A DNA stretch of 49,201 bases from Phycisphaera mikurensis NBRC 102666 (GTDB lineage Bacteria; Planctomycetota; Phycisphaerae; Phycisphaerales; SM1A02): positions 1 to 49,201 of the forward strand of contig CAMDCW010000002.1 in assembly GCA_945890745.1 (NCBI GenBank). The letters run 5' to 3'. How positions within the stretch are numbered: position 1 is the first letter of the stretch; each line of letters starts with the position of its first letter. Both the position numbers and the translations under genes were made by a program. Positions 19,756 through 42,999 of the stretch are shown one piece after another. Under the pieces are notes generated by a model. That model had not been told where the DNA came from and did not search any database. It worked only from the letters and a program-made list of their open reading frames with translations.

Positions 19756-19898
19756 GAAGGTGCGTCTGAAATGTATACGGACGGAATGGGAGAACGGACT
19801 GAGAAATCACAAAATAATGGACCACCGAGCCCGGAGGTGCCGCAATTCCGCCCTCCGTTGCTTCCCCCCGGTCAATGGCGGTGCGTTGCTGCAAGCAC

Positions 19899-19915
19899 GT
19901 GTCCGCCACGGACAC
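19899..19915. promoter_or_regulatory. palindrome, diverged copy of the GTGTCCG...CGGACAC element
   Basis: Arms GTGTCCG and CGGACAC are separated by CCA. The bases behind it (CTGGTCCG...CGCGTGATG) match the bases behind the copies at 20765 and 21560, so this is the same element with drift. It lies about 200 bp before the first PEP-CTERM-like gene. Confidence 0.6.
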
Positions 19916-19966
19916 CTGGTCCGCACGCGCGTGATGCACCCGTGCCCTGCTTTGCGTTTAAGTCAA

Positions 19967-19997: not shown

Positions 19998-20009
19998 CGG
20001 CCGGGCTAT

Positions 20010-20022
20010 GTCCGTGACGGAC
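20010..20022. promoter_or_regulatory. 13-bp palindrome GTCCGTGACGGAC, core of the shared element
   Basis: On the minus strand this reads GTCCGTCACGGAC, identical to the centre of the longer palindromes at 20765 and 21560. It lies 95 bp before the start codon at 20118. Confidence 0.55.
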
Positions 20023-20117: not shown

Positions 20118-20687
20118 ATGAGCACCATTCGTTCCGCTTCAGTCGTCGCTTTCGCACTCATTGCCACCTCGGCAGCAAGCGCTGGCGTGATTGATATCAC
20201 GTACAGCGGCATTGCTTCCGGCAGTTGGCTCTCCGGCATCTATGCCGGCCAGTCCTTCTCCGGCAAGGCCTTCAGCATCCACTCCTCCTACCTGACGGAC
20301 GCGATTACGACGTACTCGCAGGGCTACAAAGCCACCAACGGCGCCGCAGATGTCACGGTCGAGGACTACGGCAACTTTGCCGTGACCAGCTCGACGGGTA
20401 ACTTCGCGGCCAACGTGCAGAGCCGTGCAGGCTTCTCCGTGATCGGCCAGGGCGACGTCCTCAGCTTCGGCAACGGCGCCCTCTCTTCCTGGAATATGCA
20501 GAGCAACATCGGCCCGATCACCGGCACCGGCGTCTTCAACACCCAGAACCTCTTCACCACCGCGGGAGCCCTTCGGTTCAGCGGGACAACGACCGTGACG
20601 TTCACGTCCACCGTCGTCCCCACCCCCGGCGCCATCGCGCTGGTCGGCCTAGCCGGCCTCGCTGGCAGCCGCCGTCGTCGCGCCTGA
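20118..20687 (+). CDS. small secreted protein with PEP-CTERM-like sorting tail (first of tandem three)
   Basis: This 189-residue exported protein has a signal peptide (SVVAFALIATSAASAG) and a Ser/Thr/Gly-rich beta-type body. The C-terminus is VPTPGAIALVGLAGLAGSRRRRA, a Pro-Gly-Ala motif, a short hydrophobic helix and an arginine cluster, the planctomycete form of a PEP-CTERM signal. Such tails are cut and re-anchored by exosortase-type enzymes; none is in this window. The frame is open upstream to 19983, but ATG 20118 is directly followed by the signal peptide and preceded by AGGACA. The leader resembles that of the third gene (21693). A terminator hairpin follows 23 bp after the stop. Confidence 0.85.
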   Translation: MSTIRSASVVAFALIATSAASAGVIDITYSGIASGSWLSGIYAGQSFSGKAFSIHSSYLTDAITTYSQGYKATNGAADVTVEDYGNFAVTSSTGNFAANVQSRAGFSVIGQGDVLSFGNGALSSWNMQSNIGPITGTGVFNTQNLFTTAGALRFSGTTTVTFTSTVVPTPGAIALVGLAGLAGSRRRRA

Positions 20688-20710
20688 CGCGCAGCTTCAA
20701 TGCATGCATT

Positions 20711-20742
20711 CAGTCGCCCCGTTCTCACGAGCGGGGCGACTG
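20711..20742 (+). terminator. terminator hairpin of first PEP-CTERM-like gene
   Basis: The arms CAGTCGCCCCG and CGGGGCGACTG pair over 11 bp and are followed by TGATTTTA. The same hairpin stands at 21506 and 22361 behind the other two genes of the tandem. Confidence 0.8.
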
Positions 20743-20764
20743 TGATTTTAGGGGGTTTTGTCGT

Positions 20765-20787
20765 CAAGTGTCCGTCACGGACACTTG
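20765..20787. promoter_or_regulatory. perfect 23-bp palindrome upstream of second PEP-CTERM-like gene
   Basis: The arm CAAGTGTCCGT is mirrored exactly around a central C. The start codon of the next gene is 111 bp downstream. The identical 23-mer occurs at 21560. The symmetry, size and position suggest an operator for a dimeric regulator. It is too symmetrical and too short of T's to be a terminator. Confidence 0.7.
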
Positions 20788-20897
20788 GTCCGGATCGGCG
20801 TGATGGTTGTTTAGCGCGGACTTCGTGTTCATAAATGGAGCGTGCTTACATGCCATCGCGGCACAGCGCTAACGAACCCTGTCATTACAAGGAAATC

Positions 20898-21482
20898 ATG
20901 AATCTGCTTACCAACCGTTTCACTATCCTGACCGGCGCCCTGAGCGCGGTCGTCGCGTCCACCGCCAGCGGAAACATCGTCACCAACGGCGGCTTCACCA
21001 ACGGTTTCAACGGCTGGACGATGTGGGGCACGGCAGCGCCCGGCGGAGGCGGACTCGCGTACTTGGGCAGCATAGGCGGCGATCCAATGGGAGGAGGCGG
21101 CTTGACCGTTGCCCAGTTCGACTGCCCCGGACCCGGCGGCATGTACCAAGACCTGAGCACCGTGGCTGGCGAGGAGTACACCGTGAGCTTCGGACTGAGG
21201 AAGGTCACGGGTTCGGGCAATACGAACAGCTTCTCGCTGGACTTCGGCAGCCAGACGGTGATGTCCCTGGTCAATAGCCCGACCATCAATCCGATTGCGT
21301 ACTACTCGTTCGATATGACGGCGACCGGTTCGACCACGCGACTGCAGTTCAACTTCCAGTCTACGACCTTTACTTGGACGGTCGCGGCCATCTCCGTCAC
21401 GCCGGTGCCCGTCCCCGCGCCGGGCGCAATCGCGCTGATCGGGCTGGCTGGCCTGGCCGGCGGACGCCGTCGCCGCGCCTGA
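20898..21482 (+). CDS. small secreted protein with PEP-CTERM-like sorting tail (second of tandem three)
   Basis: This 194-residue protein has a signal peptide (FTILTGALSAVVASTASG). The body begins NIVTNGGFTNGFNGWTMWG, the usual opening of a jelly-roll carbohydrate-binding-like domain ('NGGFE...GW'), and continues with SFGLRKVTGSGNTNSFSLDFG and TTRLQFNFQST. The C-terminus is VPAPGAIALIGLAGLAGGRRRRA, the PEP-CTERM-like tail. ATG 20898 has AAGGAAA just upstream and is chosen over the in-frame ATG at 20835, which would put 21 polar residues before the signal peptide. Ligand unknown. Confidence 0.86.
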   Translation: MNLLTNRFTILTGALSAVVASTASGNIVTNGGFTNGFNGWTMWGTAAPGGGGLAYLGSIGGDPMGGGGLTVAQFDCPGPGGMYQDLSTVAGEEYTVSFGLRKVTGSGNTNSFSLDFGSQTVMSLVNSPTINPIAYYSFDMTATGSTTRLQFNFQSTTFTWTVAAISVTPVPVPAPGAIALIGLAGLAGGRRRRA

Positions 21483-21505
21483 CGCGCAGCTTCAACGCAT
21501 GCATT

Positions 21506-21537
21506 CAGTCGCCCCGCTTTCACGAGCGGGGCGACTG
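21506..21537 (+). terminator. terminator hairpin of second PEP-CTERM-like gene
   Basis: A 13-bp perfect stem (CAGTCGCCCCGCT with AGCGGGGCGACTG) around a 6-nt loop, followed by TGATTTTA. It starts 24 bp behind the stop codon. Confidence 0.82.
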
Positions 21538-21559
21538 TGATTTTAGGGGGTTTTGTCGT

Positions 21560-21582
21560 CAAGTGTCCGTCACGGACACTTG
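21560..21582. promoter_or_regulatory. perfect 23-bp palindrome upstream of third PEP-CTERM-like gene
   Basis: It is identical to the palindrome at 20765 and embedded in the same surroundings. It lies 111 bp before the start codon of the next gene, the same distance as the first copy. Confidence 0.7.
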
Positions 21583-21692
21583 GTCCCGATCGACGTGATG
21601 GGTCCGCGCCTTCACCTTCGTTTGTAAGGGTAAGGCGCGCTATCGCGCCGCCGAGATCACGTTCCTTTACCCCTTTCAGGACACCCCGAAAC

Positions 21693-22337
21693 ATGAGCAC
21701 TGATCGTTACACCCAGAACTTCGCCGCGGCAGCGGCCGTCGCAATCGTGACCGTGGCAGGATCGGCACACGCCGATTTTCTCACCGGGACTTCGTACTAC
21801 ACGTCGGCCGTCGCAAGCAGCGAGTTCAGCCCGTCATATGTCATCAACAACATCTTTGACAACGACATGGCCACCCAGTGGGCGATCGCCAGTTACGCCG
21901 GGACGAACCCCCAGGGTCGAGACGTTGGTTGGTTCTCCTTCACGCTCGATCAGTCGTACTCCATCGACGCCCTCCGCCTCGCGCCGCGGTTTGCAACCAA
22001 CACCGTGGACGGCTTCAACACCGCCAACATGTGGATCGGTACGAGCTCGTTCGGCGTCGACGTCACCAGTGCAAGTTCCACCAGCAGTTTCCTCGCCTCC
22101 AACACCCCCGCAACGTGGAGCAGGACTGGCATGTTTGACGGCTTGCAGACCTTTACGCTGGGCGCCCCGGTCACCGGCCGGTATGTCCTTGTGCAACTGA
22201 TCAACACCGTTGACAACGGCACCTTCCGCAACCTCGGCCTTCGGGAGTTTGCATTGTCCGCAACGGTGGTTCCTGCGCCGGGCGCCATCGCCATGCTCGG
22301 CCTCGCTGGTCTCGCCAGCCGCCGTCGTCGCGCCTGA
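21693..22337 (+). CDS. secreted discoidin-like protein with PEP-CTERM-like tail (third of tandem three)
   Basis: This 214-residue protein has a signal peptide (FAAAAAVAIVTVAGSAHA). The body resembles an F5/8 type C (discoidin) domain: ASSEFSPSYVINNIFDNDMATQWA, then WFSFTLDQSYSIDALRLAPR and a last strand VTGRYVLVQLINTVDNGTFRNLGLREFAL. Such domains commonly bind sugars or surfaces. The tail is VPAPGAIAMLGLAGLASRRRRA. ATG 21693 is preceded by AGGACACCCCGAAAC, nearly the leader of the first gene (20118); the frame is open further upstream to 21537. A terminator with the shared hairpin follows, but no palindrome block comes after it. Confidence 0.87.
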   Translation: MSTDRYTQNFAAAAAVAIVTVAGSAHADFLTGTSYYTSAVASSEFSPSYVINNIFDNDMATQWAIASYAGTNPQGRDVGWFSFTLDQSYSIDALRLAPRFATNTVDGFNTANMWIGTSSFGVDVTSASSTSSFLASNTPATWSRTGMFDGLQTFTLGAPVTGRYVLVQLINTVDNGTFRNLGLREFALSATVVPAPGAIAMLGLAGLASRRRRA

Positions 22338-22360: not shown

Positions 22361-22392
22361 CAGTCGCCCCGCTTTCATGAGCGGGGCGACTG
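22361..22392 (+). terminator. terminator hairpin of third PEP-CTERM-like gene
   Basis: The same 13-bp stem as at 21506 (CAGTCGCCCCGCT), here with loop TTCATG and followed by CCTTTC. It ends the three-gene tandem. Confidence 0.78.
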
Positions 22393-22443: not shown

Positions 22444-23649
22444 ATGTCACACACCAAGTCACCGAACTTCGAAATTGCCAGCGCGCAGATCACAGATACT
22501 GCACTGGCGTTGCACCGGGCCCTGCGTGACACGTTGGAGCGGGTGCTGCCCGCCATGGACGGTGCGCGCGCGTGTGGTCGTGGGCTCGGGTTGCGAAGGA
22601 ACCTGGGCTGGCAGGTCTACACCATCGCGCACACTGCCGACCATGCATCAGTCATCCGCGCACTGCCGAAGTTGCGGGGTTGGGAACTGGTGCTGAAGTC
22701 GCTCGAAACACGCGGCTGCCCGGCCAAGCCATTACAAACGCTGCGCACGGCGATCCGAAACATGGAGGCGCAATTGGTACCAGGCGCCACCAGCCAGCCG
22801 CTGCTGCGCGCCGTGGCCGCGGGCGCGCTTGACACCCCTGCGCAGCGGACCGCCATGCTCCGAGCTCGCGCCAATGCCACGCGAGCAAACGAATATCTGC
22901 ATGGCATCGGGCTGGCGACGTATCTCTCGTCGTTCCTCATCGGCCCCGCAGGAACTGGCGGTGCAGTGGGCATGGCGGCGGCGACCAGCATCCACGGGAT
23001 TCACCGCATCCGCCCCAGCGCAGCGTGGCCGATCTACTACACACTGGAGGCGCACGAAAAGGGGAGCCAGCGTGGCGTAACCACCATGAAGCACGGCACC
23101 AAGGGCATCCCCGCCTTGGTGCGCGACCTCTCCTCGCCAGACGCCACGAACGGATGCCTGCGCATGCACCGCGATGGTGAGACGCAGATGGTGGAACTCC
23201 TTGACCGAGGCACCGCAAACGCGGACCCGCTTGACCTGGCATTCCTTGAGCACCTTGATCATGTCGGCACGCTGCAAGAAGCGCGCGCTCATTGGCGACT
23301 CATGTTCTTGATGACGACACCAACCGAGCGCACGGTGACCGAGGTGTGGTTCCACCGCTCAGTGAAGTTAGCGAACGATCCTTCAGCGATGCTGATGAGT
23401 TCGCCGAACCTCAATCGGCGCGTTCTGGCGGAGCATGGTCTCGAACGCCTCCCGCTCGAAGCGAGCGCCGTTCCGATAGAGGGACCGACGTTGCCCGCGT
23501 CAGCGCGACGGCATTCGGCAGTGCATGCAGAACTCTTGGAGCGCGCCGCTCAACGCTTGGGCGCGCCGCTCAGCGAGTTCACGGGCTTTCAGTTAGTCGT
23601 GCCAAATCCACCATGGATGTCAATGGTGGCGATGGCATTTGACTGCTGA
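22444..23649 (+). CDS. uncharacterised 401-residue protein
   Basis: No signal peptide is visible, so it is probably cytoplasmic. The N-terminal part is helical (ALALHRALRDTLERVLPAMDGARACGRGLGLRRNLGWQVYTIAH) with a possible helix-turn-helix between about 45 and 90. The middle carries a Gly/Ala-rich hydrophobic stretch (LSSFLIGPAGTGGAVGMAAATS). The C-terminal half is mixed and reads like an alpha/beta domain, with DPLDLAFLEHLDHV and HWRLMFLMTTPTERTVTEVWFH. Composition and length support a real gene. I recognise no family; a planctomycete-specific regulator is one guess. The gene follows the last terminator of the PEP-CTERM-like tandem by about 50 bp. Confidence 0.7.
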   Translation: MSHTKSPNFEIASAQITDTALALHRALRDTLERVLPAMDGARACGRGLGLRRNLGWQVYTIAHTADHASVIRALPKLRGWELVLKSLETRGCPAKPLQTLRTAIRNMEAQLVPGATSQPLLRAVAAGALDTPAQRTAMLRARANATRANEYLHGIGLATYLSSFLIGPAGTGGAVGMAAATSIHGIHRIRPSAAWPIYYTLEAHEKGSQRGVTTMKHGTKGIPALVRDLSSPDATNGCLRMHRDGETQMVELLDRGTANADPLDLAFLEHLDHVGTLQEARAHWRLMFLMTTPTERTVTEVWFHRSVKLANDPSAMLMSSPNLNRRVLAEHGLERLPLEASAVPIEGPTLPASARRHSAVHAELLERAAQRLGAPLSEFTGFQLVVPNPPWMSMVAMAFDC

Positions 23650-28757: not shown

Positions 28758-29573
28758 TCAACGGCGTCGGCGCATTCCCACCAGACCGGCTGCCGCCAGT
28801 AGCGCCACTGCACCCGGTGCAGGAACGATGGAGATCGAACCAACTTGATAGGAGCCAGCGACTTCCGGAACAGCAGCTCCGAATGCGTTGCACTGATATG
28901 CGAAGTTCATTGAGAATGACGTTACTTGTGTCAGGTCAATCGACTCCTCAGGATTGAACGGGGCGAAGTCCGCGAAGTTTGCGAGTAGACCACCATTCAG
29001 GCCACTGAAGCCGCCAGCGGCATAGCCGAAGAAGGTGTAGTTCGCCTGCACTCCGTATGCATCGGTCAACACCAGATCGAGCGTCAGGCCTTGAAGGGAG
29101 GGATTGGTGATGCCAGTCGATCCGACAAGAGATCCGTTGATCCCGATGCCATGGCCCTGGGAGGCAAAATCCATTGATGTGCCGGTCACAGCGTTGTAGG
29201 CAAGGCTTCCAGTTGCTTCGCCGAGTTTGCCGCCGAAGTTGAAGTTGGCAGTGCCGGCGGCTGTATCAATCGTGGTCGAGGAGAATCGGTTCCCCTTATC
29301 TGCCGTTGAGTAACCGTTGTCACCGAAAGAAGACCAGCTCGCACGAGCCACGCGATTGCGGCGCGAGTTGGCGATGGGTGCGATTGCAGCATTCACTGCC
29401 GATACCGATGCGCCAGAATCAACGGCGCTCGAAGTGGTCGAGCCCCCGGCGAGGGCCATCTGGCTAGACGCATCAAAGCTGTCGATGATGATCCCCGCCT
29501 GGGCAGAGGCGGTGATTAGGGACAAGGACGTGGTAAGGACAAACGTGGGGTGAGTGAAATGAGAGGTGTGCAT
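28758..29573 (-). CDS. secreted protein with PEP-CTERM-like tail (paired-palindrome control)
   Basis: This 271-residue exported protein has a signal peptide (FVLTTSLSLITASAQA). The body is rich in Gly, Ser, Asn and Ala with alternating strands and no cysteine until a single one near the end. The C-terminal tail is VPAPGAVALLAAAGLVGMRRRR. ATG 29573 has AAGGAGTTTCAG directly upstream, an excellent ribosome-binding site, and is preferred over the open frame to 29615. Its upstream region holds the paired palindromes at 29722-29752, shared with the gene at 33341. It follows the di-haem peroxidase gene on the same strand but with a 385-bp gap, so it probably has its own promoter. Confidence 0.85.
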   Translation of the reverse strand: MHTSHFTHPTFVLTTSLSLITASAQAGIIIDSFDASSQMALAGGSTTSSAVDSGASVSAVNAAIAPIANSRRNRVARASWSSFGDNGYSTADKGNRFSSTTIDTAAGTANFNFGGKLGEATGSLAYNAVTGTSMDFASQGHGIGINGSLVGSTGITNPSLQGLTLDLVLTDAYGVQANYTFFGYAAGGFSGLNGGLLANFADFAPFNPEESIDLTQVTSFSMNFAYQCNAFGAAVPEVAGSYQVGSISIVPAPGAVALLAAAGLVGMRRRR

Positions 29574-29721: not shown

Positions 29722-29752
29722 TTCTCTGGAGAAGTAGTGCTTCTCTAGAGAT
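29722..29752. promoter_or_regulatory. paired 12-bp palindromes, candidate operator, copy 1
   Basis: TTCTCTGGAGAA (29722-29733) and TTCTCTAGAGAT (29741-29752) start 19 bp apart. The first is imperfect at its centre and the second differs in its last base from a perfect palindrome. AACGTAATC follows at once. The nearest downstream start codon (minus strand, 29573) is about 150 bp away. The same arrangement and spacing occurs at 33483-33513. Confidence 0.68.
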
Positions 29753-29850
29753 AACGTAATCGACTCGCCGAACCCATCATCCACTGACATGATTAATCCT
29801 AGAAATGGCGATGTAAAGTCCCATATAGCAAACGCTTATGCATGAGCAAC

Positions 29851-32537: not shown

Positions 32538-33341
32538 TCAACAAACGGACCGGCGCCGATGCGCTCCTGACAGCAGACCAGAGATCGCAAGAAGCGCGAC
32601 TGCTCCTGGCGCGGGGACAATCTGCAAGGAGAATGTCTTCTGGTCAGCCGTGCCGTTGCCTCGACCGATAGTCGCGCCCATCTTCCAGTCAAGATTGAGT
32701 TCGCTCATGTGAAGTTGTGCCACCATGATGCCCAATGTTCCTGCAGCAGCGTCCGGCGTTGAACTGGCTACCCGGTTTGTCAGCGATGCAAGGCTGACGG
32801 CGTCTGCTGCGGATCCCGCCAAGTAGAACCCTGCTGTGTCTGGCACGGAGTGCGTGTTCGGATTGACGAATTCGCTATTGGTGAAAGAACCTGAGACGAC
32901 ACTGAAACTGTTGGCGGTTTTAGACGTGCCGGCGAGGGTTGTGTAGGTCACGTTCCACGTCGGATCACCGATGGTCGCGCTGTCCGCAAGCCAATCGACA
33001 CCATCGAGTGTTGAACTGATCGTCAGGAAGCTATCCTCGGAAGTCCAGTTTTGGAACTCCGTGGCAGCGAAGACGCTTTGGGTACCAGATCCCTGAAGGA
33101 ATCCACCCGTGGAAGTGGTTTGAATGTAGCCAGCGTTCGGCGATTTCAGGTTTGAGCCGTAAACGTTATAAAGTTTGTCGGACGCGCTACTCGTGACGGC
33201 GAAGACGTTGACGAGGTAGCCGCCGTTGGTGGCCGAACGCACGTTGGCGGTCCAGCCCAGGAAGTCAGCACTTGCGGATCCGGCGATCAGTCCGATGGCG
33301 AGGGGTGCAGCGAGCCGCGAAACAAAGGTGGGGGTAAACAT
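32538..33341 (-). CDS. secreted protein with PEP-CTERM-like tail, first gene of the redox block
   Basis: This 267-residue exported protein has a signal peptide (LAAPLAIGLIAGSASA) and a beta-rich body. It opens with FLGWTANVRSATNGGYLVNVFAVT and contains STLDGVDWLADSATIGDPTW and GTLGIMVAQLHMSE, segments I recall from planctomycete PEP-CTERM proteins of unknown function. The tail is VPAPGAVALLAISGLLSGAHRRR with a short end (SVC). ATG 33341 has AAGGAGTTGATTC upstream, a strong ribosome-binding site, and is preferred over the long open frame to 33449. The peroxidase gene starts 65 bp downstream, so both could be one transcript. Paired palindromes lie 142-173 bp upstream of the start. Confidence 0.84.
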   Translation of the reverse strand: MFTPTFVSRLAAPLAIGLIAGSASADFLGWTANVRSATNGGYLVNVFAVTSSASDKLYNVYGSNLKSPNAGYIQTTSTGGFLQGSGTQSVFAATEFQNWTSEDSFLTISSTLDGVDWLADSATIGDPTWNVTYTTLAGTSKTANSFSVVSGSFTNSEFVNPNTHSVPDTAGFYLAGSAADAVSLASLTNRVASSTPDAAAGTLGIMVAQLHMSELNLDWKMGATIGRGNGTADQKTFSLQIVPAPGAVALLAISGLLSGAHRRRSVC

Positions 33342-33513: not shown

Positions 33514-33675
33514 ACTCTGATGACACCTAAGCAAACGTAATCCGCACCACCAACCCCTCACGGGTTGGCCTCAAAAGCTGCATTTGTGTCCTATAACTGG
33601 GTCTGCAGAGGAATTTCGCCCTGATAACCCCAGTTATCGAACGAAACATCACCATGTGAGCCTCAAGCACATCAA

Positions 33676-38778: not shown

Positions 38779-40641
38779 ATGCTTCGAAATCACCATGCTC
38801 ACGGAATGGCACGATTAGTAGTCAGTATTTTTGGACTTTTTATGATTGGCGGCAATGCTCCGGTGGGCGCTGCAGCAGCCATACCCGCAGGAGCGAGCGC
38901 GCCGCTGGGAAGTTCATGGAACTCCCGCGCGGATCAATACGTTGCTGCCGCGCGCACGCGAACACTTGATGAGTGCAAGGCGAAGGGCATTGCCCTACCG
39001 AAAGACTTTCTGGCATGGATTGATCGCGACCCAGTGTTGCGCGCTTCGGTCTACGGTTGCCGCAACAACCCGCTGCCGGTGCTATTGGCGCTGCGGTCTT
39101 TGGAGATTGATCTTGGTGAGAAGACGGTACGCACCGATTACCCACAGTTAGCGCTGGCGTTTGCCATTCAAGACTCGTATGCGAAGCGCACGCCGAAAGC
39201 TGGCGCATGGAACGATGCCGACGGTGCGGTCGCTCCGGATTCTTTACCTGACGTTTCGCCGCGTGCTCCTCTTGTCCTGAATATTCCGGGTGATCCGCGC
39301 ATGCCCGTGGATACGAAGGACTCAAAGCGCACGCTTGATCGCGACGACTCCATAGTGAATTTCTTGGAAGACCACGCGCCGGTTGAAGTGGATGTGAAGG
39401 CGCAGGAACTCCCGCCGCTTGAGTATGACAGCAAGGGTATTGCGAAGCCGCGTGGGCAGGCAGTCGAGGTCACTCGGAAGATGGCCCGCCCACTGGTTGC
39501 GGCGGATGTGATTGCATCCGCTGGACTGCAGCGCGAATTCAATGCGTACATGGAGGCGCATGGGCAGAGCGTTCGGCTCGAGTGCGGCGACGGCGCGGTG
39601 GGCTGGAATTCCACCGATGCCGTGAATGACGATGAACTTCGCAAGCGAATCGCGGCGGCGCATGAGATGTTTCAGGCTGCGTACCGGGCGAAGGGCCGCA
39701 TGCCTGCTGAACGTGATGCGGCGCCGACGCCTTCGGAATCGATGGCGTGGTTCATCCGTAATGACCGGTGGAGATTCCCTGACGATGTGCGAGCGGCGCG
39801 CGCATGGCCGCGCTTTCCGCTCAATGCACCGTGGCCGGTGTTATTGATGCTGGCTGCTGATGATCAGCCGCTCCGTGAGCGCGAAGAAATCTGGGCGAAG
39901 TTTCGTGATACCGGCGAGATGCGCACCTACGGCGAATACATCGGCGACATCGCGCAGCAGTTTGATATGCAGAGCGCGCGGCGGTTGAGTCCGTTTCCGT
40001 ACAGTTACGGCAGCATTCAAATGATGTGGAAAGATGGCGGCGTGTGCGGCACCATGGGAAACATCGGCGCGCGCACTGAACGCATTTGCGGCGTGCCCGC
40101 ATCCACCGCTGGGCAGCCCGGTCACTGCGCGATGGTACAGATGGACTTTGATGCAAAGGCTCGCACATACACGTGCAAGGGTGGGCAGTATGCCACTGGT
40201 GGCGATGAAGTCACCGGTGTGCACGCCGGATGGAACTACGACGACAAGGGTGGCCGGCGCCCGATGATCTTCCACCAAACCGTGGCATGGGGTGTTAATG
40301 TGGGGCTGGAGTCATTGGTGGACACCATGGTGATGCGCCGCGCGTGGGATGCGCTGCCCGCGGAGCAACGCGCCAAGGATTGCGGCAAATTCTTGGCCGC
40401 CGGATTGGCACGTAATCCGTACGCGATGACAGTGGTGGAAGCAGCATTCGCGGATGCACCGGACGCCAAATCCGCCAAGAGCATGCTTGATGACTTCAAC
40501 GCGGCGCTCGACAAAGCGGGTGTTCCTGCGGAGCGCGCGTTGTACCGCGACACCGTCCGAGGCATGGTGCAAGCGCGCTTTCCGGATGACGGCGCGCCCA
40601 AGAAGGCCACTGGGAAGAAGTCGCGCGCAGGCCAGCGCTAA
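38779..40641 (+). CDS. secreted transglutaminase-like protein
   Basis: This 620-residue protein has a signal peptide (MARLVVSIFGLFMIGGNAPVGAAAA, after a nine-residue leader; M10 at 38806 is an alternative start). The body is largely helical with no known domain until GGVCGTMGNIGARTERICG and GVPASTAGQPGHCA. A Cys (C423) within GVCG followed by a His (H449) in PGHCA is the pattern of transglutaminase-type enzymes. I did not identify the third residue with certainty. The C-terminus is Lys/Arg-rich (PKKATGKKSRAGQR). The family is likely a planctomycete one of unknown function; the catalytic idea rests on two motifs. It is divergent from the SulP-carbonic anhydrase fusion and convergent with agmatinase. 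Confidence 0.7.
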   Translation: MLRNHHAHGMARLVVSIFGLFMIGGNAPVGAAAAIPAGASAPLGSSWNSRADQYVAAARTRTLDECKAKGIALPKDFLAWIDRDPVLRASVYGCRNNPLPVLLALRSLEIDLGEKTVRTDYPQLALAFAIQDSYAKRTPKAGAWNDADGAVAPDSLPDVSPRAPLVLNIPGDPRMPVDTKDSKRTLDRDDSIVNFLEDHAPVEVDVKAQELPPLEYDSKGIAKPRGQAVEVTRKMARPLVAADVIASAGLQREFNAYMEAHGQSVRLECGDGAVGWNSTDAVNDDELRKRIAAAHEMFQAAYRAKGRMPAERDAAPTPSESMAWFIRNDRWRFPDDVRAARAWPRFPLNAPWPVLLMLAADDQPLREREEIWAKFRDTGEMRTYGEYIGDIAQQFDMQSARRLSPFPYSYGSIQMMWKDGGVCGTMGNIGARTERICGVPASTAGQPGHCAMVQMDFDAKARTYTCKGGQYATGGDEVTGVHAGWNYDDKGGRRPMIFHQTVAWGVNVGLESLVDTMVMRRAWDALPAEQRAKDCGKFLAAGLARNPYAMTVVEAAFADAPDAKSAKSMLDDFNAALDKAGVPAERALYRDTVRGMVQARFPDDGAPKKATGKKSRAGQR

Positions 40642-40690
40642 CGAGTGGGATGAACGAGCAAGGCGATCGAGTTAGCGTCACGAGCCAACA

Positions 40691-41881
40691 CTAGCGGGCG
40701 GAGCGCGCTTTCTTGACTTCACGTCGGAAGTCATTCAACAGCGTGCAGCCCATCAACTTGTACAGGACGCGCGCGCCGACGCTGCCGTTCCATTCATCGC
40801 CGGATGTACTTGGGGTGACTTCGCAGAGATCAAATCCGATCACGCGGCGGCCGGTCTTGGCAAGCATCTCCAGCAGGTGACACACCTCGGGGAACGTGAG
40901 GCCGCCGGGAACCGGCGTACCTGTTTGCGGGCAATGCTCGCTGGTCAGGCCATCGATGTCAAACGAGATGTACACCTCGTGCGGAAGCGCAGCGATGATG
41001 TCCTTGCACACTGCGCTCCACGTGGCACCGTTGAACTGACGGTCACGGATGCGTTGGTCGAAGAACGTGGTGACACGGCCCTTGGAATTCTCAATGAACT
41101 CCGCTTCGCGCTGGCCGAAATCTCTGATTCCCACCTGCACCAACTTCTTGACGCCGGGCAGACGCGTCATCACATTGTGGAAGATGCTGGCGTGGCTCCA
41201 CGTGAAACCTTCGAACGAATCACGTAGGTCCGCGTGCGCATCGATCTGCAGAATGCCCATGCCTGGATGGCGCAGCGAGAGTTCAGCAATCAAACCGAAC
41301 GGGCTGGAGTGGTCGCCGCCAAGCACCGCTGGAATGGCACCGCGGTCCAAGATGCGTTCGGCTTCGCGCGCAACGTAACCGTGCACGCGTTCGCTGGCGG
41401 CATTCACTGTTGCGAGTGCCTTCGCGTGGGCCTTTGCTTTCGCCTTGTTGCTCGGCACTGCGCCGCCAACCTTGATGATGGGCTCCGCCACGCGGCGCGC
41501 CTTCTTTGAAAGCGCGGCGATGTCCTTGGGAATGGGAAGCATGGCGATGCCGGCCTGCCAAACCGCGCCAAACTGAATGTCTTGCAAATCAACCTGCTTG
41601 CTCGCCTCCATCACATGCGCGGGACCAGCGGCGGTGCCGGCACCGTAACTGGTGGTGGCATCAAACGGCACCGGGATCACCACGATCCGCGCGTCCTTCG
41701 GGCCGATGGCAAGACCGAAGAGACCGTCGCCAGTAGCGGCGGCATCCGGGTCGAAACCAGCGGGGACGAATGGCGGCTTGGCGGGCTGCGTCGCGGGTTT
41801 TTTAGCGCTCCGCGCGACGGGCTTCTTGACGGGCTGCTTGGTGGGCTTCACAGTGGGCATTGCGGGCGCAGGATATGGCAT
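40691..41881 (-). CDS. speB: agmatinase (ureohydrolase family) with basic N-terminal extension
   Basis: Agmatinase splits agmatine into putrescine and urea. The two-manganese motifs are complete: VLGGDHSS, QIDAHADLRDSF and SFDIDGLTSEHCPQTGTPVPGG. GYGAGTAAGPAH-like VPFDATTSYGAGTAAGPAHVMEAS marks the N-terminal core. An insertion rich in Lys/Ala sits in the middle (VPSNKAKAKAHAKALAT). The N-terminal 35 residues are Lys/Pro/Ala-rich (KPTKQPVKKPVARSAKKPAT). The start could be ATG 41881 or 41860; I use 41881. The gene diverges from the deoxyhypusine-synthase-like gene, the usual partner in putrescine-to-polyamine synthesis. Substrate specificity (agmatine rather than arginine or guanidinobutyrate) is inferred from this neighbour. 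Confidence 0.88.
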   Translation of the reverse strand: MPYPAPAMPTVKPTKQPVKKPVARSAKKPATQPAKPPFVPAGFDPDAAATGDGLFGLAIGPKDARIVVIPVPFDATTSYGAGTAAGPAHVMEASKQVDLQDIQFGAVWQAGIAMLPIPKDIAALSKKARRVAEPIIKVGGAVPSNKAKAKAHAKALATVNAASERVHGYVAREAERILDRGAIPAVLGGDHSSPFGLIAELSLRHPGMGILQIDAHADLRDSFEGFTWSHASIFHNVMTRLPGVKKLVQVGIRDFGQREAEFIENSKGRVTTFFDQRIRDRQFNGATWSAVCKDIIAALPHEVYISFDIDGLTSEHCPQTGTPVPGGLTFPEVCHLLEMLAKTGRRVIGFDLCEVTPSTSGDEWNGSVGARVLYKLMGCTLLNDFRREVKKARSAR

Positions 41882-41946
41882 TCGCTGTCCTCGGCACGCG
41901 GCACAAGGCACGAGCGGCACCCCACCTCCGGTACATTCCGTCCCCC

Positions 41947-42999
41947 ATGCCAACGCCGACCCTCCCCGTACTTGAGTTCGTTGCCAACAACTATCGCAAC
42001 TTCAATGCCCGCGCCACGCGCGATGCGTTGTACTCCTACTGGGATCACGTTGGTAGCGGCGGCAAGATGTACTGGGCGGTGGCGGGCGCCATGAGTTCTG
42101 CGCAGCTCGGCATTACCCTTGCGCCAGCGATCCGTGCGGGCCTGGTGCACGGACTCAGCGTGACCGGCGCCAATCTGGAGGAGTCACTCTTTCGCTTGGT
42201 AGCGCATCACGGATACAAGGACTTCCCCGACTATCGCTACTTCACAAAGAAGGATGACACCAAGATCCTCAAGCAGCGCATGCGCCGCGTGACGGACACC
42301 AGCATCCCGGAAGACGAAGCGTTCCGCGCGGTTGAGAAGATCCTTGTGCCCATGTGGAAGAAGGCCAGCAAGAACGGCGACCGCCGCTTCTGGCATGAGT
42401 ACTTCTATGAGCTGATTCTCTCGATCCCAAAGAGCAAGTACCAAGGCAACCCTGAAGAGTGCTGGCTACTGGCCGCAGCGAAGGCCAAGCTACCGATGGT
42501 GGTTCCGGGTCACGAAGATTCCACGTTCGGAAACATCTTTGCGTCGCATGTGAAGTTCAATGATTGCAGTGCAAACATTGTGAAGAGCGGCATCGAATAC
42601 ATGGGTCAGCTCTACGACGATTACAAGGTGCTTTCCAAGGGCAAGGGCGTTGGGTTCTTCCAAATCGGCGGCGGTATTTCTGGCGACTTCCCGATTTGCG
42701 TTGTGCCCAGCATTAAGTACGACCTGCAGCAACCGGTGAAGCCATGGGCGTACTTCTGCCAGATCTCTGACAGCACTACCAGTTACGGCAGCTACTCCGG
42801 TGCAACGCCCAATGAGAAGATCACTTGGGACAAACTCACCGAGAAGACGCCGATGTTCGTCATTGAATCGGATGCCACGATTGTGGCGCCGCTGATGCTT
42901 GCCGCGCTGCTTGAGTGCTGCAAGAATCCAAAGGCCGCGGCCGCCATCATCAAGGCATCGCGGGCCCAGACGGCGAAAAGTGCGGTTCACACTTCCTGA
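41947..42999 (+). CDS. speY: deoxyhypusine synthase-like enzyme (homospermidine-type SpeY)
   Basis: Bacterial members of the deoxyhypusine synthase family are thought to make homospermidine or related polyamines by transferring an aminobutyl group. Family blocks visible are GSGGKMYWAVAGAMSSAQLG, LVHGLSVTGANLEESL, VVPGHEDSTFGNIFASH, GKGVGFFQIGGGISGDFPICVVP and SGATPNEKITWDKL. The last matches the segment containing the active-site lysine of the eukaryotic enzyme. The start is ATG 41947 (350 residues). It is divergent from agmatinase by 65 bp and overlaps the Nudix gene's 3' end by 13 bp. Since bacteria lack eIF5A, hypusine formation is unlikely. Confidence 0.9.
   Translation: MPTPTLPVLEFVANNYRNFNARATRDALYSYWDHVGSGGKMYWAVAGAMSSAQLGITLAPAIRAGLVHGLSVTGANLEESLFRLVAHHGYKDFPDYRYFTKKDDTKILKQRMRRVTDTSIPEDEAFRAVEKILVPMWKKASKNGDRRFWHEYFYELILSIPKSKYQGNPEECWLLAAAKAKLPMVVPGHEDSTFGNIFASHVKFNDCSANIVKSGIEYMGQLYDDYKVLSKGKGVGFFQIGGGISGDFPICVVPSIKYDLQQPVKPWAYFCQISDSTTSYGSYSGATPNEKITWDKLTEKTPMFVIESDATIVAPLMLAALLECCKNPKAAAAIIKASRAQTAKSAVHTS

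Follow-up and report, generated by a model that had tools for sequence, protein, structure and literature searches.

The window, the whole 49,201-nt stretch of DNA analysed here, is contig C2 of the G000 assembly (250 contigs, 2.7 Mb, 90% complete). Three PEP-CTERM-like genes follow one another on its forward strand, linked by repeated sequence:

20118–20687, + strand: gene 1, PEP-CTERM-like, 189 aa; body without a family match
20898–21482, + strand: gene 2, PEP-CTERM-like, 194 aa; weak match to CBM_4_9 (carbohydrate-binding)
21693–22337, + strand: gene 3, PEP-CTERM-like, 214 aa; F5/8 type C domain, E 1.1e-7
20615–20806, + strand: joint copy 1, with sorting-tag codons, stop, terminator, palindrome and −35 element
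21410–21601, + strand: joint copy 2, 192 bp, homologous to copy 1
20711–20742, + strand: terminator hairpin of gene 1, −28.9 kcal/mol
21506–21537, + strand: terminator hairpin of gene 2
22361–22392, + strand: terminator hairpin of gene 3, palindrome absent behind it
20765–20787, no strand: perfect 23-bp palindrome, putative operator of gene 2
21560–21582, no strand: perfect 23-bp palindrome, putative operator of gene 3
19896–19918, no strand: diverged, putative operator palindrome CACGTGTCCGCCACGGACACCTG, 5′ of gene 1 and 11 nt before CGTGATGC
20009–20022, no strand: second palindromic core TGTCCGTGACGGAC, in a predicted hairpin 3′ of gene 1's promoter

A sequence-only reading of this DNA had described three unrelated PEP-CTERM-like genes in tandem, and the description holds: all three carry the C-terminal tail, and BLASTP detected no mutual similarity among their mature bodies. 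Across 13 congeners, the body of gene 2 is without a match except for one of 31% in G010. Farther along, the gene at 22444–23649 has no Pfam or NCBIfam match and a 96% counterpart in G006. Synteny is rearranged there: in G006 and G013, its homologue adjoins homologues of the genes at 38779–41953.

The same reading had reported that 119 bp after the stop codons of genes 1 and 2 are nearly identical. These blocks (20688–20806 and 21483–21601) differ at exactly five positions, both hold a perfect palindrome and a terminator hairpin, and gene 3 ends with the same terminator as genes 1 and 2 without the palindrome (22361–22392), all as it had said. The block hairpins fold at −29 kcal/mol. The full homology reaches beyond the 119 bp to 192 bp, with 18 differences (91% identity) and a longest exact run of 67 bp; it starts in the C-terminal tag codons (the last 24 or so) and ends directly after CGTGATGG. 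Outside these limits, on both sides, identity is at chance level (8 of 20 bp). The repeated block is a real joint between PEP-CTERM-like genes.

The three genes belong to a large family. G000 has 60 tail-pattern candidates for PEP-CTERM-like genes, about 52 of them good, and tails of the VPAPGAIALIGLAGLAGGRRRRA type are found in genes 1–3 and about 50 others. The tag comprises a short Pro motif (P-A/T-P, not P-E-P), a hydrophobic helix and a basic cluster. Genes 2 and 3 score 15.1 and 14.7 bits with TIGR02595 (cut-off 16), and genes 1–3 score 12.5, 18.1 and 14.7 bits with PF07589 (cut-off 20.7); because these scores lie under the curated cut-offs, we use the label PEP-CTERM-like. The N-terminal leaders, judged by eye from the translations, resemble signal peptides, being hydrophobic with A-x-A ends. 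An exosortase (PF09721) scores above its cut-off at G000:C84 and in 10 of the 14 genus genomes, G000 included; the neighbours of the exosortase gene include no obvious regulator.

A shared bipartite motif precedes many of these genes, with the following instances in the window:

19932–19958, + strand: promoter of gene 1, TGATGC-N17-CGTT, PWM score 21 bits
20801–20827, + strand: promoter of gene 2, TGATGG-N17-CGTG
21596–21622, + strand: promoter of gene 3, TGATGG-N17-CGTT
28758–29573, − strand: PEP-CTERM-like gene with the same promoter motif at 29752–29779 (−)
32538–33341, − strand: PEP-CTERM-like gene with the same promoter motif at 33533–33560 (−)

The motif, obtained by EM, is present in about 26 of 54 regions upstream of PEP-CTERM-like genes, at scores of 34 to 14 bits (best reversed/complement control, 11). 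Matches to the motif and to its reversed control numbered 27 and 2 in G000, and 17 and 1, 16 and 1, 22 and 0, and 21 and 0 in four congeners. Searches with off-length spacers served as spacing controls, and lengthening the N17 spacer by one base abolished the signal. Ten of the 11 best matches in G000 (two mismatches at most) precede PEP-CTERM-like genes. Pooled across the genus, 57 distinct sites give TGATGG-N17-CGTT at a median of 101 nt from the start codon, and in the −10 element C is conserved in 56 of them, G in 56 and T in 51. Beyond this genus, an order-wide search returned counts near background. Judged from sequence, the predicted promoter is a genus-specific bipartite class serving about half of the PEP-CTERM-like genes. 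ECF sigma factor promoters have CGT as a hallmark of the −10 element (PMC8103513), and it is present here, whereas their usual −35 AAC is replaced by TGATGG; it is possible that group-specific −35 elements account for TGATGG in an ECF-like promoter.

Other upstream sequences were seen as well. Several PEP-CTERM-like genes (upstream regions of L060, L062, L069, L079 and L091) are preceded by a second flavour of the motif, GTGATCCA...ATCTCGCC or TGATCCA...CGC, which may be a sister promoter class. The main motif also lies 5′ of a large dockerin-like secreted protein (L210:1956, G002:C38) and, in several congeners, 5′ of a possible small-peptide region (L191:4935, L208:425 and L247:2269; MTNNKKLKAKDLASIKG in L247).

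The palindrome, CAAGTGTCCGT-C-ACGGACACTTG (CAAGTGTCCGTNACGGACACTTG in full), has two exact sites in G000, together with a copy on contig C234 with one mismatch and a copy 5′ of gene 1 with three; its inner 17-bp core, GTGTCCGTNACGGACAC, has three exact sites and one with a single mismatch. A genome-wide search, set beforehand as a check, placed four of four copies 5′ of PEP-CTERM-like genes, and a reversed control pattern had no match in G000 at up to one mismatch. Two diverged copies had been proposed upstream of gene 1. That at 19896–19918 is one, whereas the other (20009–20022) amounts to a 14-bp core within a larger hairpin. The proposed fixed distance between palindrome and start codon likewise survives for genes 2 and 3, at 110 nt to the ATG, but not for gene 1 (199 nt) or for the fourth copy, on C234 (about 122 nt). 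What is constant in four of four copies is an 11-nt gap to CGTGATGG/C (CGTGATGC at gene 1).

By chance, about 0.7 palindromes with 11-bp arms are expected per 2.7-Mb genome, so one lone palindrome is weak evidence; its recurrence before four promoters, all of a single gene class, at constant spacing and with no control match, is not a chance occurrence. Among 60 relatives, the exact palindrome occurs only in UBA966 (a Phycisphaerales bacterium, G002; a metagenome-assembled congener), as a single copy, and a scan of 84,980 genomes, a set that perhaps did not include G000 itself, returned UBA966 only. Six other relatives among the 60 have one-mismatch matches, which we attribute to chance: those in G004, G022, G037, G041 and G056 read as coding sequence, and that in G054 is in seemingly intergenic DNA that lacks the promoter motif. 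Viral contigs contained no copy, and no shared palindrome was found 5′ of other TGATGG promoters.

The palindrome is probably an operator, a regulator binding site, rather than the joint itself. Its unvarying position upstream of the promoter points to this, and an activator would be the probable ligand. Its centre lies about 60 bp 5′ of the inferred transcription start, and class I activators act about 60 bp before the transcription start. The palindrome might instead work as an RNA hairpin, a transcript end or processing signal of the preceding gene: its RNA is predicted to fold at −15.9 kcal/mol, and in both window copies it stands behind the terminator. We regard this as unlikely, given that a strong terminator already lies 5′ of the palindrome and that at C234, at its UBA966 counterpart C207 and at gene 1 no PEP-CTERM-like gene precedes the palindrome, yet the 11 nt to CGTGATGG/C are kept.

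The operator reading of the palindrome bears on the proposal that the block is a portable cassette joint. This proposal stands in so far as the blocks join PEP-CTERM-like genes and carry common control elements, and as the same joint type flanks bodies that have been exchanged between related species. It does not stand for the palindrome as a universal or portable joint: there are four sites here and one in the sister genome, most PEP-CTERM-like genes lack it, and the exchange junctions lie elsewhere.

The window trio is one case of a wider pattern in which genes share a frame and differ in body. The shared frame consists of promoter, leader and signal peptide at one end and of sorting-tag codons and terminator at the other. 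Within G000, L066 and L072, on separate contigs, share 155 bp of upstream sequence at 90% identity and 92 bp of downstream sequence at 88%, and L066 and L093 are 81% and 87% identical on the respective sides; the bodies of such frame-sharing genes on separate contigs have no similarity. Between species, the palindrome locus on G000 C234 is orthologous to UBA966 C207, with flanks of 94–98% identity and the palindrome block in both. Identity breaks off about 30 bp before the G000 start codon and is back at the arginine codons beside the stop; in between, protein identity is 36% across 180 residues. In one orthologous array (G000:C158, G010:C8, G009:C2 and G008:C152), a gene has kept its leader and 25 signal-peptide codons (MKNMNTMTLLAAGTCAMIAASAANA, at most two substitutions) in four species, together with tag codons and downstream DNA of 86–98% identity, and its four bodies show marginal similarity at best (33% over 102 residues with E 6e-5 for one pair). 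The first junction coincides with the presumed signal-peptidase site (about +75 nt), and the second with the start of the tag, 60–75 nt ahead of where the stop codon ends. The neighbouring gene of this array also has a changed body in UBA966 (C139), and at C211/C265 one species has one gene where the other has two. In 46 gene pairs, flank identity is 80% or more on both sides; the body is shared in 25 of them, of low similarity in 4 and without similarity in 17; many of these pairs are of common ancestry, and the events are not independent.

Could the joints in the window have arisen from local tandem duplication of a single joint, with no cassette role and with bodies that came to differ later through unrelated events? 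The window copies are adjacent and 91–96% identical, and the same three-gene set was found in no relative. We consider this origin quite unlikely, since frames are shared around unrelated bodies on separate contigs and at orthologous loci in several species, and the fourth palindrome has identical geometry on another contig; as a full account, duplication is largely refuted by these dispersed and cross-species cases. The bodies could also have diverged in place under strong diversifying selection, with promoter, signal peptide and tag conserved and no recombination, and the C234/C207 bodies are indeed still distant homologues (36% aa). Most bodies, however, have no detectable similarity and differ in length between flanks of 92–97% identity, and the junctions are abrupt, falling within about 15 bp, which makes divergence in place very unlikely.

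Every genome compared is a fragmented assembly (at least several come from metagenomes), and some contigs begin or end close to joints, so that apparent exchanges might be chimeras assembled at repeated tag or promoter sequences. Against this, apart from the 22-bp palindrome core, the only further match of the G000 C234 leader in the window is a stretch of 67 bp at 84%. Because leader matches are so few and the UBA966 palindrome is single, C234/C207 offers no long exact repeat for a misjoin. The window copies themselves share no exact run longer than 67 bp, and several separate assemblies have the same array layout. We find an assembly artefact hardly credible. Finally, a symmetric repeat beside exchangeable genes is reminiscent of an integron- or Xer-like site for site-specific capture of gene cassettes, an extremely improbable function here: there are four copies for about 52 genes, the junctions lie at signal-peptidase codons, in the leader or in the tag, the spacing between palindrome and promoter is fixed, and a 1-nt palindrome centre is ill-suited to a tyrosine-recombinase core. 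The position of the palindrome away from the crossovers argues against a site-specific system. A Pfam scan of the seven genes at 15.2–24.6 kb gave no match to a recombinase family. The precision of the junctions is by itself no proof of a dedicated mechanism, because display needs in-frame fusions to signal peptide and tag.

We think it likely that homologous recombination between shared frames swaps bodies under common control. Read 5′ to 3′, a joint brings together the tag codons and intrinsic terminator of one gene, the putative operator and the −35 element of the next gene. Shared leaders and tags would act as homology arms, and the body between the frames would be replaced from another family member or from a relative's DNA. 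Where a joint is duplicated, as in the window, a whole gene could be gained or lost between the copies. The palindrome, just 5′ of the promoter, would add a second layer of control on four genes. Shared frames, unrelated and exchanged bodies, a difference in gene number and a fixed promoter/operator geometry are read directly from the compared DNA; we infer that the route is RecA-type homologous recombination, that a dedicated sigma factor reads the promoter and that an activator binds the palindrome. At the window itself, exchange is deduced from the sister loci because its bodies were not seen in other frames, in a search made with gene 2. On balance, we lean towards a genus-wide modular display in which a dedicated non-sigma-54 promoter and standard leader and tag ends are retained and bodies are swapped with exact junctions at the tag and the signal-peptidase site. 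If so, a species would keep the expression and sorting address and alter the displayed body.

Conserved ends around variable genes that recombine are also a feature of the S-layer genes of Campylobacter fetus (sap) and Lactobacillus acidophilus (slp), where switching is an inversion with one promoter; here, by contrast, there seems to be a promoter copy for each gene, and inversions were not observed. In Porphyromonas gingivalis, surface-protein alleles of less than 43% identity lie beside regions of more than 96% (PMC5266723). Recombination was inferred there too, from strain comparison; however, that case concerns the T9SS in one species and no dispersed family with common promoter and tag frames. 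Another close precedent is the PEP-CTERM/EpsH system (Haft et al. 2006, PMC1569441), for which that paper describes, as here, diverse secreted proteins with a common C-terminal tag, a genomic exosortase, large upstream regions with a common cis-regulatory sequence and tags closer within species than between them. According to the same paper, its sigma-54 (−24/−12) motif pair with PrsR/PrsK has been reported from Proteobacteria only, whereas we find another bipartite promoter and a palindrome in a Phycisphaerales genus. The motif shared here is TGATGG-N17-CGTT and has no −24 GG/−12 GC pair, so that, as the known Proteobacteria promoter described in that paper is sigma-54, the one here represents a different solution. 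The text consulted (PMC1569441) covers paralogous expansion of the tag and reports no body exchange between conserved leader and tag, and we found no paper on body exchange in PEP-CTERM genes in the open-access literature. Both the expansion of PEP-CTERM families and allele exchange in surface proteins are known; the organisation and the promoter described here appear to be new.

PEP-CTERM families have many members with very diverse mature regions, and at issue are the origin of this diversity and its co-regulation outside Proteobacteria. The cross-species comparison provides a testable mechanism, in which mature bodies are swapped while leader and tag stay fixed, as well as a specific promoter. 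If the mechanism is true, these uncultured planctomycetes would alter their surface identity by replacing bodies, with a bearing on escape from phages and predators, attachment and polymer binding. The frames might also be used to search metagenomes for repertoires of surface proteins.

A candidate for the protein that reads the palindrome is encoded beside it in UBA966, where a LuxR-type regulator with an N-terminal winged helix-turn-helix adjoins the palindrome locus (L047:4453–5322, − strand, on UBA966 C207). Its G000 orthologue is at G000:C80:1068–1934, and among the 14 genomes orthologues of at least 99% identity occur in G000, UBA966 and G009 only. With this mixed distribution, the LuxR-type protein is a possible reader; it stays a lead because its gene lies on a different contig from the palindrome locus in G000 and the sequence adjoining it in G009 has no palindrome. 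Directly 5′ of the G000 gene, the glycosyltransferase-like sequence G000:C80:1–960 (L290) is AT-rich and unlike the remaining genome, pointing to a possible transfer or assembly join.
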